Shown piece after piece: positions 16,400 through 23,434 of a DNA stretch of 64,000 bases (positions within the stretch are counted from its first letter, which is position 1; the number at the start of each line of letters is the position of its first letter). A program made the translations under genes and the position numbers. Source of the DNA: Bacteroidota bacterium (GTDB lineage Bacteria > Bacteroidota > Ignavibacteria > Palsa-1295); NCBI GenBank assembly GCA_021324735.1, contig JAJPIO010000003.1, positions 1 to 64,000 on the forward strand, written 5' to 3'. The notes under the pieces were generated by a model. That model was not told the DNA's origin. It saw nothing but the letters and a program-made list of their open reading frames with translations, and did no database searches.

Positions 16400-16468
16400 G
16401 GGCAATTCTACTCAAAAGTCGCGATTTTCGCTCATTTTGGAGGGCGGAAAAAATGGCCTCTCGTGACA

Positions 16469-16499
16469 TTGACTATTGGACGGTCGGAGGATAAGTTTG
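16469..16499 (+). promoter_or_regulatory. Bacteroidota-type promoter for the secreted-peptide/sigma cassette
   Basis: TTG at 16469-16471, 20 bases, then taagtttg (16492-16499), an exact match to the TAnnTTTG -7 element with the usual -33 TTG. It would start transcription near 16506, about 35 bases before the ATG at 16541. Confidence 0.6.
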
Positions 16500-16540
16500 C
16501 GAAGTCTCAACAAAATAATTCGCAACCAACTCTCGATCCA

Positions 16541-16900
16541 ATGAAAAAAATAATCCTTGTTTTACCGCTCCTATTTATTCTCGTTGACCCCAGCGGAAGC
16601 TGGGGTCAACCATCCTGTAACACGTTTACAATTACGAACAGCTCCTCATTCGCACCTGGGGGGATTATTATCGGGGATGGCAACGGCGATGCAACCAGCG
16701 TTGATGTGACAAGCCAAGGTAACTTCGATACCACGATTTGCTATACGGCGCTATGGGTGGAAGTTAACGGGCAATATGTAAGCTACCCAAACTCTCAGGC
16801 AGTGCAGCTATCGGATGGTTCTTACATCACCGTAACGTGGCACAGCACAACCTGGATTGAGCTTGGTGACAAAGTAACAAACAATACGACGATTCATTAA
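16541..16900 (+). CDS. small secreted protein, unknown
   Basis: 119 residues from the ATG at 16541, preferred because it opens a clear signal peptide (MKKIILVLPLLFILVD...SWGQ). The mature part is about 95 residues, Ser/Thr/Asn/Gly-rich and beta-prone with two Cys (QPSCNTF and TTICYTALW) that could form a disulfide once exported. No family recognised. It lies directly behind a good promoter and 18 bases ahead of the sigma-factor gene, so the two are probably co-transcribed. Confidence 0.7.
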   Translation: MKKIILVLPLLFILVDPSGSWGQPSCNTFTITNSSSFAPGGIIIGDGNGDATSVDVTSQGNFDTTICYTALWVEVNGQYVSYPNSQAVQLSDGSYITVTWHSTTWIELGDKVTNNTTIH

Positions 16901-16918
16901 TTAGTTTGCCCTTGACTT

Positions 16919-17431
16919 ATGATTCAACCAATGATAATTACCGGTCAAATGCATTCACTTCAAAGTCTTGCAAAAGTTTTACAACAGAAGTATCCTCGCG
17001 TTCCACGGCAATATGTTGAAGATGCAGCGGCGACCGCAATCGCGATAGTTACCACAAAAATTATCCAAAACCTTATTAAAAGACCAGATGACACCTTTAT
17101 ATATTCATTAAAAACAGCAACGCGACTTCTTTGGAAGGAAATTAATCGATCGCGAAGAGTCATCCTTTTTGAGGACCTTCCTGACATTAGCAAATACTCC
17201 GAATTAGGCCAGCCTGATTTGATGGGAATAGAGAGTGCATTTGAATACCTGGCAATGCTCCCAATGCGAGATAAATATCTGCTCGAATTACATTACAGTG
17301 AAGGAAGGACTTTTGATTCGATAGCCAAAGAAAAGCATAGAACACCCGCCGCAATTCGAAAACAAGCACAGCGAGCAATTAAAAAATTACAAAAAATACT
17401 GAACGTAGAACGATCTTCTTGCCACAAATAA
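16919..17431 (+). CDS. sigma-70 family (ECF-like) RNA polymerase sigma factor
   Basis: 170 residues. The N-terminal half looks like sigma region 2 (helical, FIYSLKTATRLLWKEINRSRR around residues 60-80) and the C-terminal half is region 4 with its helix-turn-helix: LPMRDKYLLELHYSEGRTFDSIAKEKHRTPAAIRKQAQRAIKKLQK. Length matches ECF sigmas. No anti-sigma factor gene is adjacent, so regulation may be transcriptional or through the neighbouring secreted proteins. ATGs at codons 5 and 11 are alternative starts. It sits between two genes for small secreted proteins, suggesting that it directs or responds to this cassette. Confidence 0.85.
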   Translation: MIQPMIITGQMHSLQSLAKVLQQKYPRVPRQYVEDAAATAIAIVTTKIIQNLIKRPDDTFIYSLKTATRLLWKEINRSRRVILFEDLPDISKYSELGQPDLMGIESAFEYLAMLPMRDKYLLELHYSEGRTFDSIAKEKHRTPAAIRKQAQRAIKKLQKILNVERSSCHK

Positions 17432-17595
17432 AATATCGAAGTTGTGTCACATTTCAGATGGGTGCTGGCTCTCTATTATGGGCTCTTAAAAGTTCAAAGC
17501 TGAATGATTAGATTAAAACAGCCACGGACTCTTCAAAAAGCTGGACCGGAAACGCCGGAAGCAGCTGTGCACTATACCTCATTTCATAAATACAT

Positions 17596-17970
17596 ATGAA
17601 AAACAAGCTAGGACAAAAAATCGTTGGCAGTATTGCCATTGCTATGTTTCTGTCTCTGACGATACCATCAGTCTCGAACGCGTGGTATATCCGTGTAACA
17701 TCGGGTGGCGGAGCAGGTGGTTTTGACAAGACCTCAAAAACGGTCGATAATAATGGCAATACAACTATCCAATGTGCCGGGTCAGGTAATACTCCCTGCC
17801 CTACCATCGCTTATAACCCGCATGAACAACCAGGTGTTGATTATGCAATGACGCAAATTTCAGCGGGGGTACTTACCGGAACGTACAGTGATCCGTTTAA
17901 TGGTACGACAACCACTTGGACATCTGACGATACCTTTGGCGATAATAGCCAGATTAATGTCAACGAGTGA
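17596..17970 (+). CDS. small secreted two-cysteine peptide (NVEALA-like)
   Basis: 124 residues with a signal peptide (IVGSIAIAMFLSLTIPSVSNA). The mature part is Gly/Asn/Thr-rich and holds TIQCAGSGNTPCP, a C-x-G-x-G...CP arrangement like that of NVEALA-type secreted peptides, which in Bacteroidota are commonly encoded beside a 6-bladed propeller protein and a thioredoxin-fold protein. Exactly such genes follow here. The resemblance is by motif and context, not by alignment. A very stable hairpin begins 12 bases after the stop, so this gene may be expressed more strongly than those downstream. Confidence 0.65.
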   Translation: MKNKLGQKIVGSIAIAMFLSLTIPSVSNAWYIRVTSGGGAGGFDKTSKTVDNNGNTTIQCAGSGNTPCPTIAYNPHEQPGVDYAMTQISAGVLTGTYSDPFNGTTTTWTSDDTFGDNSQINVNE

Positions 17971-17981
17971 TTAACAATTAG

Positions 17982-18019
17982 CTTAACACCGCTCCGATTA
18001 ATCGGGGAGCGGTGTTAAG
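17982..18019 (+). terminator. strong hairpin between peptide and propeller genes, possible attenuator
   Basis: 14-bp perfect stem (cttaacaccgctcc / ggagcggtgttaag); the loop itself contains gatt/aatc. No T-run follows on the plus strand, so it may act as an attenuator or an mRNA-processing/stability element instead of a full terminator. It overlaps a possible GTG start at 18012, which is one reason to prefer the ATG at 18030 for the next gene. Confidence 0.7.
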
Positions 18020-18029
18020 CCACAAAACT

Positions 18030-19208
18030 ATGCTAATTCTTTCTTTGATTTTCGGATTACTGAGTCATTCCGCTCCGGTTTCTGCACATTTAATAACTTT
18101 AGACACAATCATAGAGACCCGAATTCCGGCATCAAGTTGTTTCGAAAGCCGAATTGCTATCGCGGGTAATCAAAATGAAGCTCTAATTTATCTCCCGTCT
18201 CCGGATGATAATGATACAATAAAATTTTTGCAGATTCTTCTTCCGGGTATGCACTTAGATACTTTATCAGTGGTAATTCCCGGTCTTACAATGCGTATTT
18301 CTTCACCTCTGGCAGATGAGTTTACCTGCGACCAACATTATATAGTGTTAGGGTTTGGGAGAAATCTCTTAATCATAAATAGAGATAGCTCTAAATTGAG
18401 TTTTCACGAATTTTTACCGCTTGCAGAAAGTATTACTTTCGCGCACGTAAGCAATAATAAATTGATTGTTGGCAGATGTTATGATTTTAATCGGCTGGAC
18501 GCTGCTCAACCGACTATGCTGACGATTTATGATCTCGATACACGGAAATTCCTTCAACCACTTTATCCCAAATTCAATAATATTGAATTAACTCATTTTA
18601 GCCCCTTCCACAATATTGATGTCTACGGTAATCTGATAGCCTTTTCCCAGACCACCCGTTATGAAATCGCGATATATGATACCAGCTTAAAGTTGTTGAA
18701 TATCCTGAACCGCAACGTGCAGAATTGGAGTCCGTTTGATACCACGGTTATTTCACTGCTTCATGCAAAGCATTTAGGTGCACATGGAGCAATTCAGGAA
18801 TTATCTGGTCCTGAAGAAGCTGCAAGTCGCCTTGAATCAGTAGATTTTTTAGATTCAAGAACGCTCCTCGTTCGCTATATCCCTGCCAAAGGTGACATAT
18901 TTCCCCGAACACGTAGACTGGATTTATGGGAAAGAGATGCGTCTAGTTGGAAACTAGTTAATCAAGATTTTTTAGACTCCAGGCCCATTGACACTGAGAT
19001 ACTTACGAAAAAATATTATCCATTGGAAAGCGGATACTCCAACACCCAATATGTTGCAGCAGGAGACAAGTTATTAATCTCACCGCGCTTTTCATCGGCA
19101 ACCCCAAAGTTAGGGCTGCGCATGAAGGATATGAAACGCCTCGAAAATAATTATATTTCGAAGCATGATCCAATCCTTTGTATCTTCATTTATTCGGTCG
19201 AGAAATAA
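18030..19208 (+). CDS. secreted beta-propeller-like protein
   Basis: 392 residues from the ATG at 18030, which opens a signal peptide (MLILSLIFGLLSHSAPVSA). The mature protein shows repeating strands with motifs such as GNQNEALIYLP, DQHYIVLGFG, VSNNKLIVGRC, DVYGNLIAFSQ and SVDFLDSRTLLVRY. This resembles the 6-bladed propeller (BF3164/DUF4934-like) proteins that accompany NVEALA peptides, though identity is too low for certainty. No lipobox, so it is probably periplasmic or surface-exported. It follows the hairpin after the two-Cys peptide gene and ends 3 bases before the thioredoxin-like gene. Confidence 0.65.
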   Translation: MLILSLIFGLLSHSAPVSAHLITLDTIIETRIPASSCFESRIAIAGNQNEALIYLPSPDDNDTIKFLQILLPGMHLDTLSVVIPGLTMRISSPLADEFTCDQHYIVLGFGRNLLIINRDSSKLSFHEFLPLAESITFAHVSNNKLIVGRCYDFNRLDAAQPTMLTIYDLDTRKFLQPLYPKFNNIELTHFSPFHNIDVYGNLIAFSQTTRYEIAIYDTSLKLLNILNRNVQNWSPFDTTVISLLHAKHLGAHGAIQELSGPEEAASRLESVDFLDSRTLLVRYIPAKGDIFPRTRRLDLWERDASSWKLVNQDFLDSRPIDTEILTKKYYPLESGYSNTQYVAAGDKLLISPRFSSATPKLGLRMKDMKRLENNYISKHDPILCIFIYSVEK

Positions 19209-19211
19209 GCA

Positions 19212-19775
19212 ATGACTACGTGGCATTACGGTATACTAATCGCCACGCTATCAGTCATAATGGCTGCGTCCGGAAAGACGCAAAATCGAGCCGTTACTTT
19301 AGGGCAGGATACCATCTCACTTATAGAGTCTTCTAAACCAACAACGATAATAATCCTTCTACAAGATCCATGCGTCTCGTGCGAGTCCGAACTTGGCAAC
19401 TGGTGGTATTCTGACTTCCATGATACAATGGATTGCCAGCTGATTTGTTTGTTAACCACCAGCGAGTCCTCCTACTCTCGTTATATTGCACGTCAGCGTT
19501 GTATGCGAATATTTCCGACCGCCGAGATATTGTTCAAAACTTGCGATTCTTCCAATAAAAGCCAAGATACGAGTGATCCGGTTAATAAGTTTACAACTAC
19601 AACAGATGTAACTCCAGCATTATTATTATGGAATAATAGAGGAAAGCATGTTATGAGAGTAAGTACTTACGATAAACTCTTCCAGAATTCAGGGACATTA
19701 AACTATAACGAACTTGCTATCTTAGACGACCTTCTCAAGCGGGGGAAAAGTATTGAATATCGAATAGAGAAATAA
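19212..19775 (+). CDS. secreted thioredoxin-fold protein with CxxC
   Basis: 187 residues with an N-terminal hydrophobic signal segment. TTIIILLQDPCVSCESELGNW matches the start of a thioredoxin/TlpA-like domain: a beta strand, then a CVSC redox pair at about residues 55-58. A later VTPALLLWNNRGKHV matches the strand with a cis-Pro (TP) that packs against the CxxC. It could oxidise or reduce the cysteines of the small peptides encoded upstream in the same cassette (inference). It starts 3 bases after the propeller gene stop, so the two are co-translated neighbours. Confidence 0.7.
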   Translation: MTTWHYGILIATLSVIMAASGKTQNRAVTLGQDTISLIESSKPTTIIILLQDPCVSCESELGNWWYSDFHDTMDCQLICLLTTSESSYSRYIARQRCMRIFPTAEILFKTCDSSNKSQDTSDPVNKFTTTTDVTPALLLWNNRGKHVMRVSTYDKLFQNSGTLNYNELAILDDLLKRGKSIEYRIEK

Positions 19776-19795: not shown

Positions 19796-20221
19796 ATGCG
19801 TTACGCATTCATACTCTTTCTATTTATCCCTTCTTTTGTTTGGGCTCAACGGTGGCAATGTGTTGGCAATGACGCATACACTGGCGTCACTAACCGAAGG
19901 GACGGTTGCCTAGCTCTCCTCCGCTGCCCTAGCGATATCCTCCTCAGCACTGATTCCGGCCTTACCTGGCATGAAGTATATCACAGTCGTGAAACGATCG
20001 ACACGATTTATCAAGAGAGCGATGGTTCAGTCGTGGCTGTGTTGGATAGTGTAACAGAGCTCGTCTCCAATGACACTGGCCGCACATGGCAAACGGAGAG
20101 TGGAGAATGGAAAGTGGAGAGAGTAAAACTTTCGTTGCCTGCAAGCCTGATGAACAATTCAGGCTTGCGGGCACAATACCGTTGGACTATAATGTCTCTA
20201 TATAGTGGATCTAATTTGTGA
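19796..20221 (+). pseudogene. truncated BNR/T9SS gene fragment
   Basis: An open frame of 141 codons with a good signal peptide (MRYAFILFLFIPSFVWAQ) and then one Asp-box unit (STDSGLTWHE), but it stops after 141 codons with no propeller completion and no sorting domain. The stretch 19921-20149 aligns without gaps to 21781-22009 in the intact 605-codon gene downstream, with 14 mismatches in about 229 bases. After that point the sequence diverges and runs into a stop. It is best read as a broken partial duplicate; a short secreted product cannot be excluded. Confidence 0.7.
19921..20149 (+). repeat. duplicated segment, copy 1
   Basis: Gap-free match to 21781-22009 at a constant offset of 1860 bases (about 94% identical by eye count). 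It includes a short ggagaatggagaatgg-type tandem motif. The similarity ends sharply at gcaagcct. Confidence 0.9.
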
Positions 20222-20260: not shown

Positions 20261-21606
20261 ATGAGAAGGCATCTTCTTTTAATTCTATTGATTGTCGGCG
20301 CTTTGTCCTCTGGCACGCATGCGCAATACCGTTGGCACGTTGTCCTGCCCGATCCGATTGACACGCTATTTTATCGGGGCTTTTCCAGTATTTCGTGCAG
20401 CGGTGAAAATTGCATTGCAACAGAAATTATCTATGCTAATTTGAGTCACCAAGATCGCTTGCTAGGCGATTCAAATGTCATCCTATGCAGTCACGATGGA
20501 GGGATGTCGTGGTCGCCAGTTGCAGCTGGTATTCCCCGGTGGAAGTATGATTCTTTGGGGAAAAGCAGAGTAGGCCTTTATTTTGATGCTTCGCAACAAA
20601 TCGATTCCTTAGATGCAATCGTGGCTGACAAGCAATATGGTGTAACCATTATTACACACGATGGTTGGAAGACCTGGCGCGTCGATAGCAGCAATAAGGA
20701 TGGCATCCACAGTGTTAACTTTGCCAATGTTGCCGAAGGCAGATGCAAGAGCCATTTGGCTTTTATTGGACTACCGTTGATTCTGGCAATCACTGGCGGC
20801 GCGAGGTATTTGCGAATGGTGTCTCCTGTCGTTCGTATGGGGATAGTACCTTTCGATTGTTTAGTATGCCCAACGAGATTTTTACTACCCATAATAATTG
20901 GAGTACGTGGGATACGACGCGTATCTCAGTTGGTAGCTTGCTGACAGATACAAGTTTTCATCCCTATGACCTTTTTTTGGGCTCGGGCGATACGCTCGCC
21001 ATTGAAGGGTGGCGCTGGAAGGACCTTTCTGATTATCAGGCGTCCGTAGCAATGGCACTTTCTACAGATTTCGGAGAACACTGGGCTGAATTATCCATCC
21101 CACATGACAATGGCATCTATTTCGCAGTGACCGCTCTTCAAGCACCGCTAGACTGGAATCACATGGTCATAGCTGGCAACGATTCTGTTGGCCGCATCGT
21201 CCAAAGCTTCGATGGCGGAATGCATTGGGAGTGCGATACTGTGTCGCTAAGCACTGGCATTTCATATCATTCCATTATGCCATTCACTGTTACGGGCTCG
21301 GGTCGCGTGCTTGCAGGGGTTGCAGGTAATGGTGACTTCATCGGCTCTTCATCGCTTGCGTATTTGGAGCGAGTCCCGGCAGCGGTAACCTCTACTCCCC
21401 AGAATATTACAACGATCTTATTTCCAAATCCAACAACGAGCGTCCTTGATATTTCTTCGATAAAGGGAAATATCTCCATTCTCGATCTCTTAAGCCGGAG
21501 TTATGGAGTACAACGAAGTGGAAATACGCTCGATGTTTCAGGACTCCCGCCAGGGACCTATTTCGTCAGCGATGGTAATTCGAGGCTGAAGTTTGTGAAG
21601 GAATGA
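20261..21606 (+). pseudogene. BNR/T9SS secreted protein with frameshift
   Basis: Two overlapping frames make up one protein. The first (20261-about 20740) has a signal peptide (MRRHLLLILLIVGALSSGTHAQ) and Asp-boxes (SHDGGMSWS, THDGWKTW). The second continues the same fold (TVDSGNHWR, STDFGEHWA, SFDGGMHWE) and ends in a T9SS sorting domain (ILFPNPTTSVLDISS...GTYFVSDG..RLKFVKE). Joining them needs one extra base near 20740 (…VAEG-x-MQEPFGFYW…), so the present sequence carries a one-base deletion. It is either a real frameshift in a decaying paralogue or a sequencing or assembly error. Intact, it would have about 448 codons. Confidence 0.8.
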
Positions 21607-21646
21607 ACTGGCCAGTTTGAAGGGTGGGTGCTTGTTTTTCCAAATC

Positions 21647-23434
21647 ATGCGGATTCGAACCTACCTAGTAACCCTTACTATATTTTTGCCATGTATACTT
21701 CAAGCGCAGTCATGGCAAGCAATCACCAACAATTCTTTTAACGCAGTTACATGTCTTAGTGGTGACTACATCGCCCTCGTCCGCTTCCCCGGCGATATTC
21801 TCCTCAGCACTGATTCCGGCCTTACCTGGCATGAAGTATATCACAGTCGTGAAACGATCGATACGATTTATCAAGGGAGCGATGGTTCAGTCGTGGCTGT
21901 GTTGGATAGTGTAACAGAGCTCGTCTCCAATGACACTGGCCGCACTTGGGAAACGGAGAATGGAGAATGGAAAGTGGAAAGAGCAAGACTTACGTTGCCC
22001 GCAAGCCTCTATCCTCTGCCCACAGGTACTCATTCGGTCACATTCGCCAATTCGCTTTATTACGCTGTTGGAGAACCGGGGCTCATTTGCGTCTCGGATC
22101 GGAATTACACGCATTGGAAGGAGTTGCACCGCGCACCGTTTTCCTCCGGGGAAATAGTGGCAACGTCCGGCAAGGATACTCAATCAACCGGGCCACAAGG
22201 CATTCATTCAATTGAATTCTTCTCTCCTTCGGATGGCCTCATCACACGGTATAACGAGTTGTACTTCACGCATGACTCGGCAATCACGTGGTGCAGGACC
22301 ATACTTCCGGATACTGCTACCGCATCGCTCATGATATCCGATGATGCAGCGCTCGTTGCCACGCACCCAAAACCGCACGATACTTCTGCGATCGTTCTCT
22401 CGTTAGTAAAGAGCGGCTCCGTATCGAAACTTCAACCACAGATATCGATCTATCGGCCCATTCTGCAACTGGGATGGACAAACAAGCTCTATTCGAATAT
22501 CTATCTTCTTACCGATTCAGCGATCTATTTCTTGGATACGAGTTTATCCTCGATAACAATATCCGCGCTGCCGTTACGAGCTGGCGAGCACGCGGTTTGC
22601 GCCAGCTTTCCCGATCCCTATACCGGGTACATCCTTGCCGACTCGATCACACGCCGTGATACGACACTCGAGATCGATAACGCGTGGAGAGACACCACGT
22701 TATCGTTTGATACTTGCACGATCTATCGGTCAACGGATGGAGGAGCGTCGTGGTATCCTACACTACAAAATGCCGCGGGGCTTAGGAAGCTATTTTTTAC
22801 CAATGCCAAACATGGCTTTGCCTGTGGTAACGATGGCATCGTTATGAGAACCGATGACAGTGCATCCCACTGGGCACGCTGGGGTGTTCGGCAAAACATG
22901 AATGAAATTCGATTTATAAACGATAGTGTAGGGTATGTCGTCGGTGATAGTGGTGCGGTGTACTTTACGCAATCGGGTGGCCGCTGGTGGCGTCCCACCT
23001 ATCCGGTCCCTCAATTTATGCATCCAGCATCTTGCTACAGCAGTATCGCCTTTTCGGATGCCAACACCGTTTATATTCTATCGAATGATGGCTGTTATCG
23101 CCAGCACATCCCAGAGCCTGTGCAGTGGCGCTTTCACTGGCGGCGAACACAAAAGGCTCCTATAAGCATCACAGCATCACCGAATCCTTCGACCGGCGCC
23201 ATGCATTTTGATGTGAAGTTACTTCAGGGAATCAGTGATGGCAGTGAAAATCCATCGATCAAGATAGTAGACTTCGCTGGACGAGTGGTATTCAACACTA
23301 TCGAGTGTGCCGGCTCGGCACCAAACGAATGGTCTGCTAATGCTGATCTCTCCTATCTTACAACAGGAGTCTATGTTGCAGTCGCCTCACTAGGCAGCAC
23401 GACTGCCAAGTGCAATTTTGTGATCGCCCACTAA
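21647..23434 (+). CDS. secreted BNR-propeller T9SS protein
   Basis: 595 residues from the ATG at 21647, chosen because it opens the signal peptide (MRIRTYLVTLTIFLPCILQAQ). Asp-boxes occur through the protein (STDSGLTWHE, THDSAITWC, STDGGASWYP, TDDSASHWA), with YVVGDSGAVYFT typical of the photosystem-assembly/BNR-like propellers of these secreted families. It ends in a T9SS sorting domain (ITASPNPSTGAMHF...IVDFAGRVVF...LTTGVYVAVASLG). Part of its 5' region is duplicated in the truncated gene at 19796. Function unknown; probably a surface or released protein. Confidence 0.85.
   Translation: MRIRTYLVTLTIFLPCILQAQSWQAITNNSFNAVTCLSGDYIALVRFPGDILLSTDSGLTWHEVYHSRETIDTIYQGSDGSVVAVLDSVTELVSNDTGRTWETENGEWKVERARLTLPASLYPLPTGTHSVTFANSLYYAVGEPGLICVSDRNYTHWKELHRAPFSSGEIVATSGKDTQSTGPQGIHSIEFFSPSDGLITRYNELYFTHDSAITWCRTILPDTATASLMISDDAALVATHPKPHDTSAIVLSLVKSGSVSKLQPQISIYRPILQLGWTNKLYSNIYLLTDSAIYFLDTSLSSITISALPLRAGEHAVCASFPDPYTGYILADSITRRDTTLEIDNAWRDTTLSFDTCTIYRSTDGGASWYPTLQNAAGLRKLFFTNAKHGFACGNDGIVMRTDDSASHWARWGVRQNMNEIRFINDSVGYVVGDSGAVYFTQSGGRWWRPTYPVPQFMHPASCYSSIAFSDANTVYILSNDGCYRQHIPEPVQWRFHWRRTQKAPISITASPNPSTGAMHFDVKLLQGISDGSENPSIKIVDFAGRVVFNTIECAGSAPNEWSANADLSYLTTGVYVAVASLGSTTAKCNFVIAH
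21781..22009 (+). repeat. duplicated segment, copy 2
   Basis: The intact-gene copy of the segment at 19921-20149; see that entry. Confidence 0.9.

Follow-up and report, generated by a model that had tools for sequence, protein, structure and literature searches.

Gene content of the locus

The analysis of a 64,000-nucleotide stretch of contig JAJPIO010000003.1 (the window in what follows), from a member of Bacteroidota with a genome of 3.55 Mb, reveals a locus at which two conserved units meet: a divergent pair, formed by a candidate cytosolic peptide-pheromone receptor and the small secreted protein pep1, and an operon encoding a second small secreted protein (pep2), a propeller-like protein, and a thioredoxin-like protein, with a sigma factor gene lying between the two units. 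The locus probably carries a copy of a peptide quorum-sensing system of RRNPPA-like type in a diderm member of Bacteroidota, a reading that draws on the predicted fold of the receptor, its pairing with precursors, the conserved C-terminal peptides, the precursors with tandem copies, and the linkage to importer genes. The analysis was wholly computational. Since a type IX secretion system sorting domain is encoded at 20743-21606 (TIGR04183, above the cut-off), the host is taken to be a diderm of the Bacteroidota group, probably from a lineage resembling Kapabacteria.

The five plus-strand open reading frames (ORFs) reported by the initial annotation at 16463-19775 are present in the ORF listing of the window and all run in the same direction. 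Its description of two small secreted two-cysteine proteins also holds, pep1 and pep2 each having a signal-like N terminus and two cysteines outside the signal. Two starts were corrected, that of pep1 to the ATG at 16541 and that of the propeller gene to the ATG at 18030, the latter because the GTG at 18012 falls within an RNA hairpin. The receptor gene lies just outside the annotated interval, back to back with pep1 (Table 1).

Table 1. Positions, strands, and supporting evidence for the features of the locus
Feature	Position	Strand	Evidence
Candidate cytosolic peptide-pheromone receptor, ~512 aa, TPR-like superhelix	14864-16399	-	Divergent pairing with the pep1 family; AlphaFold2 model; VIA-align matches; profile match
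pep1, candidate secreted pheromone precursor, 119 aa, predicted signal at the C-terminal end	16541-16900	+	Homologues found with the pep1 profile adjoin receptor homologues
Predicted mature-peptide region IELGDKVTNNTTIH, ends approximate, inferred from relatives	16856-16897	+	Conserved C-terminal decapeptides in L087, L109, and L113
ECF-like sigma factor, 170 aa, proposed output regulator	16919-17431	+	PF08281; HTH genes likewise placed in L091, L093, and L121
pep2, secreted two-Cys peptide, 124 aa, first gene of the operon	17596-17970	+	Homologues 5' of propeller homologues; invariant residues
RNA stem-loop in the pep2-propeller intergenic stretch	17981-18020	+	-28.9 kcal/mol, z -8.1; counterparts in 5 loci
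Secreted propeller-like protein, putative fold	18030-19208	+	Conserved family with pep2 and thioredoxin neighbors
Secreted CxxC thioredoxin-like protein	19212-19775	+	Invariant C54, C57, and P135 in 10 homologues
ECF, extracytoplasmic function; HTH, helix-turn-helix; TPR, tetratricopeptide repeat.

Pairing of the candidate receptor with predicted precursors

Pfam and NCBIfam returned nothing significant for pep1, pep2, the propeller-like protein, or the receptor. A profile built from pep1 identified a paralogous family within the genus and family, and nearly every pep1 copy adjoins a gene of 500-odd residues homologous to the divergent gene of the window. A receptor profile detected this second gene in 12 of the 13 home-family genomes, some of which have as many as seven copies, and also beyond the home family within the class, in several of its families. 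The pairing was further strengthened by loci fetched with the receptor profile alone, where the divergent side again carries either a pep1-like gene or a much shorter ORF. By inspection, and with both precursor classes pooled, a divergent precursor accompanies the receptor in all 27 home-family loci with enough flanking sequence. Precursors of the short class have 48 to 75 aa, a hydrophobic N terminus (e.g., MDVLLAILLYLGLLST), and C termini such as IVVVDTLEMN, VIIINPEENN, or IDRRED, while those of the pep1 type contain a folded-looking domain of 100 residues. Precursor class tracks the receptor tree, requiring 3 changes against 10.3 in shuffles, none of the 500 shuffles being as low. The suggestion of a peptide signalling system tied to a sigma factor is probably right, but its parts had been misassigned: the pair consists of pep1 and the divergent gene, which had not been named.

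The C-terminal peptides vary from locus to locus and recur within some loci. At L087, three otherwise different ORFs all end in IVVVDTLEMN, with 5 to 6 of the 35 preceding residues identical; two ORFs at L109 end in IVVTDSQEGF (2 of 35 identical), and three at L113 end in VIIINPEENN (2 to 13 of 35). Within each of these loci, the codons of the shared decapeptide differ at 3 to 6 nucleotides with zero amino acid changes, and these synonymous-only differences therefore point to selection on the peptide rather than to recent copying.

Two further observations concern precursor form. The pep1-type precursors of L084 and L112 extend 20 to 30 residues beyond the usual C-terminal motif (ILDHEIL... 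and IIDPDEIL...), so that the signal may be internal or a stop codon may have been lost. In L126 (genome G046), three copies of (S/T)PYLIDRGENN make up most of a 53-aa ORF that lies at +833 to +994 relative to the start of the receptor gene, and the short precursor of that receptor ends in IFDRYED.

Predicted structure of the receptor

The AlphaFold2 model of the receptor, built from a 13-member alignment, is a confident all-helical repeat protein (predicted local distance difference test score [pLDDT] 85.8, predicted template modeling score [pTM] 0.80); the N-terminal portion, modeled over 144 residues, is helical as well. In VIA-align, the best matches of this model are RRNPPA receptors, namely Rap of phage Phi3T with its pheromone (Z 20.1), Rap with competence and sporulation factor (Z 19.6), and the pLS20 Rap (Z 18.6), followed by RapF (18.4), NprR-NprX (18.4), and AimR (~16). 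The RRNPPA matches span about 270 to 310 residues (~303 for Rap-Phi3T). The list also contains the RapF-ComA structure 3ulq. Because the search took the receptor model alone, the peptide evidence had no part in the structural match. The best matches in Foldseek, all weak, again include Rap of phage Phi3T and NprR, and synthetic TPR proteins match the receptor among PDB sequences at an E value of 0.015 only.

Candidate receptors and importer genes in other classes of Bacteroidota

A broader receptor profile finds the receptor in other classes of Bacteroidota, including the family of genome G470, where it occurs in 193 of 200 genomes. This family is called Hymenobacteraceae-like (Hymenobacter-like below) because a plasmid relative, 41% identical, belongs to Hymenobacter sp. 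BRD128. A first chance control recovered short ORFs at 13 of 38 loci versus 7.3% of control windows and, with a C-terminal pattern, at 7 of 38 versus 0.2%; this pattern was written after seeing the data, and we therefore rely on two later held-out sets. Applied unchanged, the short-ORF rule identified a precursor in 7 of 18 new loci versus 8.7% of control windows (P = 5e-4), and in 22 of 30 fresh Hymenobacter-like loci versus 3.7% in the controls (P = 1e-17, a conservative figure that takes the 8.7% background).

The Hymenobacter-like precursors begin with a hydrophobic stretch, continue in a linker rich in Thr and Ser, and finish with GG(T/S)GxW-type ends, for example YGGTGNWDTKD, IGTSGWDDRN, and GIGSGGWDDKN. 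Tandem forms are found in this setting: at one locus, three genes in tandem all end in GGTGSWDDNN, and others carry tandem GGTGWGEGQ or IGTSGWDHD units. Outside the short-ORF rule, the 118-aa precursor of L182 has six copies of TGAGGWGGD, and that of its congener L181 has six copies of GGTGGWVGD. Moreover, a gene homologous to the SBP_bac_5 protein of L181 lies 3' of the precursor, in the same direction, in 29 of the 30 Hymenobacter-like loci; in L179 and L181 the SBP_bac_5 gene is followed by two permease genes, which makes up an Opp-type importer. An SBP_bac_5 gene is also located close to the receptor in L130 and L133 (genomes G028 and G093, which belong to another family of the class), but on the 3' side of the receptor and not beside a precursor.

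Of all the ORFs in the window, a profile made from Hymenobacter-like receptors alone matches only the receptor (E value 3.7e-43), and BLASTP aligns the window receptor with that of L181 (E value 4e-15), the motif SNNWFYF being common to both. As a separate case, the receptor relative on the plasmid of Hymenobacter sp. BRD128 (L223; NZ_CP053909.1, 57156-68670) adjoins a tyrosine recombinase and has no recognizable precursor in its upstream gap, and it may represent an eavesdropping or mobile copy.

The pep2 operon and the sigma factor

Homologues of the propeller gene were first found in genomes G009 and G015, and more loci were obtained by profile search. The propeller gene of G015 is immediately preceded by a pep2 homologue and immediately followed by a gene for a CHSC thioredoxin-like protein, with no sigma factor. 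Across the class, 10 loci outside the window have the thioredoxin-like gene directly 3' of the propeller gene, 8 of them with a Cys peptide resembling pep2 directly 5', and none of the 10 has a sigma factor. An alignment of nine pep2 sequences, in which the cysteine motif takes the form C-x-G-x-G...C, shows C60, G64, C68, Q87, Y97, and W108 to be invariant. The trio thus forms a self-standing conserved operon.

The assignments made for its products fared differently. The CxxC thioredoxin-like annotation is supported by 10 homologues, which preserve C54 and C57 and a proline (P135) at the cis-Pro position; one homologue also gives weak matches to Pfam Thioredoxin models. A role for this protein in handling the cysteines of pep2 is plausible. 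For pep2, the motif and the gene order do resemble those of NVEALA peptides, but membership in that family is unsupported, as the Pfam NVEALA model matches neither pep2 nor its 8 homologues at E values up to 1; NVEALA was not mentioned in the literature searched. The propeller label finds no backing in Pfam, which matches none of 11 homologues, or in PDB sequence profiles, where nothing is significant and a single NHL-repeat chain appears at an E value of 0.11. Stem-loops of unrelated sequence also occur between the peptide and propeller genes in L134, L136, L137, L141, and L142 (z -3.4 to -6.9), and their presence in six trio operons suggests that the structure may keep the peptide transcript above the rest of the operon in abundance. 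Shortly 3' of the cassette, a 141-aa ORF (19796-20221) repeats, in truncated and nearly identical form, the beginning of the BNR-type protein encoded at 21617-23434, representing a partial tandem duplication.

The sigma factor was described as ECF-like. Its region 4 is clear (Pfam PF08281, E value 5.3e-7, above the cut-off), but no region 2 model matched the 170-aa product, and the full-length ECF model covers residues 63 to 161 with a score below its cut-off. A search of 60 related genomes, among them six from the genus itself, found no relatives at E <1e-8, and a search of the genome contigs gave one weak, irrelevant match only. Directly 3' of the precursor, a gene for sigma-70 region 4 or a GerE-type HTH protein is present in 4 of the 27 home-family loci (the window, L091, L093, and L121), so that the sigma factor without an anti-sigma factor, as it had been presented, appears to be one local variant. 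A scan for sigma-70 promoters and terminators showed no excess over shuffles. As an observation on the same position, Cys-rich secreted proteins of 140 to 270 aa are encoded directly 3' of the precursor in L079, L082, L083, L084, L089, and L189 and may be a recurring cargo class.

Proposed mechanism and alternative explanations

We infer a mechanism in which pep1 would be exported and a short C-terminal peptide, or each copy in the tandem precursors, would be cut free. The peptide would be re-imported, through the neighboring importer in the Hymenobacter-like family and perhaps, in the home genome, through SBP_bac_5 systems whose genes are present there but unlinked, and would bind the divergently encoded cytosolic TPR-like receptor, altering its hold on a regulator. 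In the window this regulator would most likely be the sigma factor, with the receptor acting as its missing anti-sigma factor that the pep1 peptide releases. The secreted cargo under control would be the pep2, propeller, and thioredoxin proteins here and Cys-rich and BNR-type proteins elsewhere. The receptor is proposed as an anti-sigma factor because Rap proteins bind the GerE-type DNA-binding domain of ComA and because HTH genes follow precursors in four loci. That the sigma gene is the local output of the receptor system is a tentative assignment, which we consider somewhat less probable than its being a bystander. The full picture, joining peptide quorum sensing across a diderm phylum to a pheromone-gated anti-sigma factor over the pep2 operon, is more doubtful still.

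Several points weigh against an RRNPPA-like system. The support is computational, and the model requires that a peptide cross the outer membrane. On the structural side, domain III of MalT, also a TPR domain, scores on par with the Raps (Z 19.1), and the match is therefore to a regulatory TPR class, not exclusive to RRNPPA and no proof of descent; Foldseek gave no match at E <1e-3, the receptor has no significant sequence match to any RRNPPA family in Pfam or PDB sequences, and its N-terminal domain has no HTH match, residues before 94 being barely covered by PDB matches. Among the precursors, most of the short class lack the basic residues with which a Sec signal usually opens, the predicted peptide of the window is not duplicated, and no precursor was seen in the outlying loci L176, L178, L180, L183 to L186, L191, and L192. 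Moreover, a sigma gene is clearly 3' of the precursor only in the window. The receptor is accordingly described as working like an RRNPPA receptor and is not filed as a member of RRNPPA, because significant sequence similarity is absent.

The strongest alternative accepts the receptor and pep1 as a true signalling pair and treats the sigma gene and the pep2 operon as unrelated bystanders downstream, which we regard as a serious possibility, if a little short of even. The genes 3' of pep1 differ between loci, the sigma factor is a local orphan separated from pep2 by a gap of 164 nt, and the pep2 operon is found elsewhere without receptor or sigma factor; yet the sigma gene begins 18 nt past pep1 on the same strand, HTH genes occupy the equivalent position in three other loci, and secreted Cys-rich proteins or propeller-type cargo recur 3' of pep1.

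It is considerably less likely that the precursors are bacteriocins or secreted peptides resembling ribosomally synthesized and posttranslationally modified peptides (RiPPs), possibly with multiple cores, and that the TPR-like protein regulates them or provides immunity to them instead of sensing a pheromone. The multi-copy Gly/Trp-rich cores and the Cys-rich secreted neighbors in several loci would fit such a role, and TPR-like genes are contained in some predicted Bacteroidales RiPP clusters (PMC10352776). However, no modification enzyme is evident among the ORFs around L179, L181, and L182, where the neighbor is an importer; the peptides are short and vary between loci, the predicted fold of the receptor matches pheromone receptors, and the presence of one system per genome across nearly all members of a family would be unusual for bacteriocins. 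The initial model, in which the five genes form a single NVEALA-like peptide, sigma factor, propeller, and thioredoxin system, is very improbable: the genes are close together and codirectional, and pep2, propeller, and thioredoxin truly belong together, but they do not co-occur as one unit, given that the sigma factor has no relatives at E <1e-8 in the 60 genomes, every other copy of the trio lacks both sigma factor and pep1, pep1 belongs with the divergent receptor and is paired with it elsewhere, and no NVEALA match was obtained.

Comparison with known peptide systems

Bacteroidota loci are known that combine an NVEALA peptide, a six-bladed propeller, and a thioredoxin. The pep2 operon is similar in that its first gene encodes a small secreted peptide containing CxGxG...C and its next two genes encode propeller-like and thioredoxin-like products, whereas the window peptide and propeller have no Pfam match to such families.

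RRNPPA systems outside Gram-positive bacteria and their mobile elements were not described in the papers searched, and a search that reached few subscription papers and no preprints found none linking RRNPPA to Bacteroidota, Kapabacteria, or Hymenobacter. The system proposed here differs from RRNPPA in several respects: its hosts are diderm Bacteroidota and not Gram-positive Bacillota, its receptor has about 500 residues with an N-terminal domain not recognized as HTH and no significant match to RRNPPA models, an importer gene is fixed beside the precursor in one family, and a second precursor class, that of pep1, carries a folded-looking domain of 100 residues. In comparison with Rap-Phr and ComA, the receptor fold is shared, and the GerE or sigma-70 region 4 HTH genes beside some receptors recall the GerE domain of ComA, while binding of the receptor to a sigma factor or HTH protein is here a proposal.

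The likenesses to RRNPPA (Rap-Phr, NprR-NprX, AimR-AimP, PlcR-PapR, Rgg-SHP, and PrgX) comprise a TPR-like superhelical receptor, predicted in our case, and an adjacent short precursor whose presumed signal is C-terminal, with single-copy and repeated-copy forms. Repeated propeptides and uptake through Opp-type permeases are established in RRNPPA systems (PMC11343458, PMC9765709), and importer genes stand beside the precursors in the Hymenobacter-like family. Candidate peptides such as GGTGNWDTKD and IVVVDTLEMN are clear-cut, and the receptors are predicted to be soluble, which makes direct synthesis and binding tests feasible. If the reading is true, the sigma factor of the window gains its missing partner, the question is raised of how such peptides cross an outer membrane, and a large diderm phylum shares the logic of RRNPPA, its signals being legible in the genome sequence.

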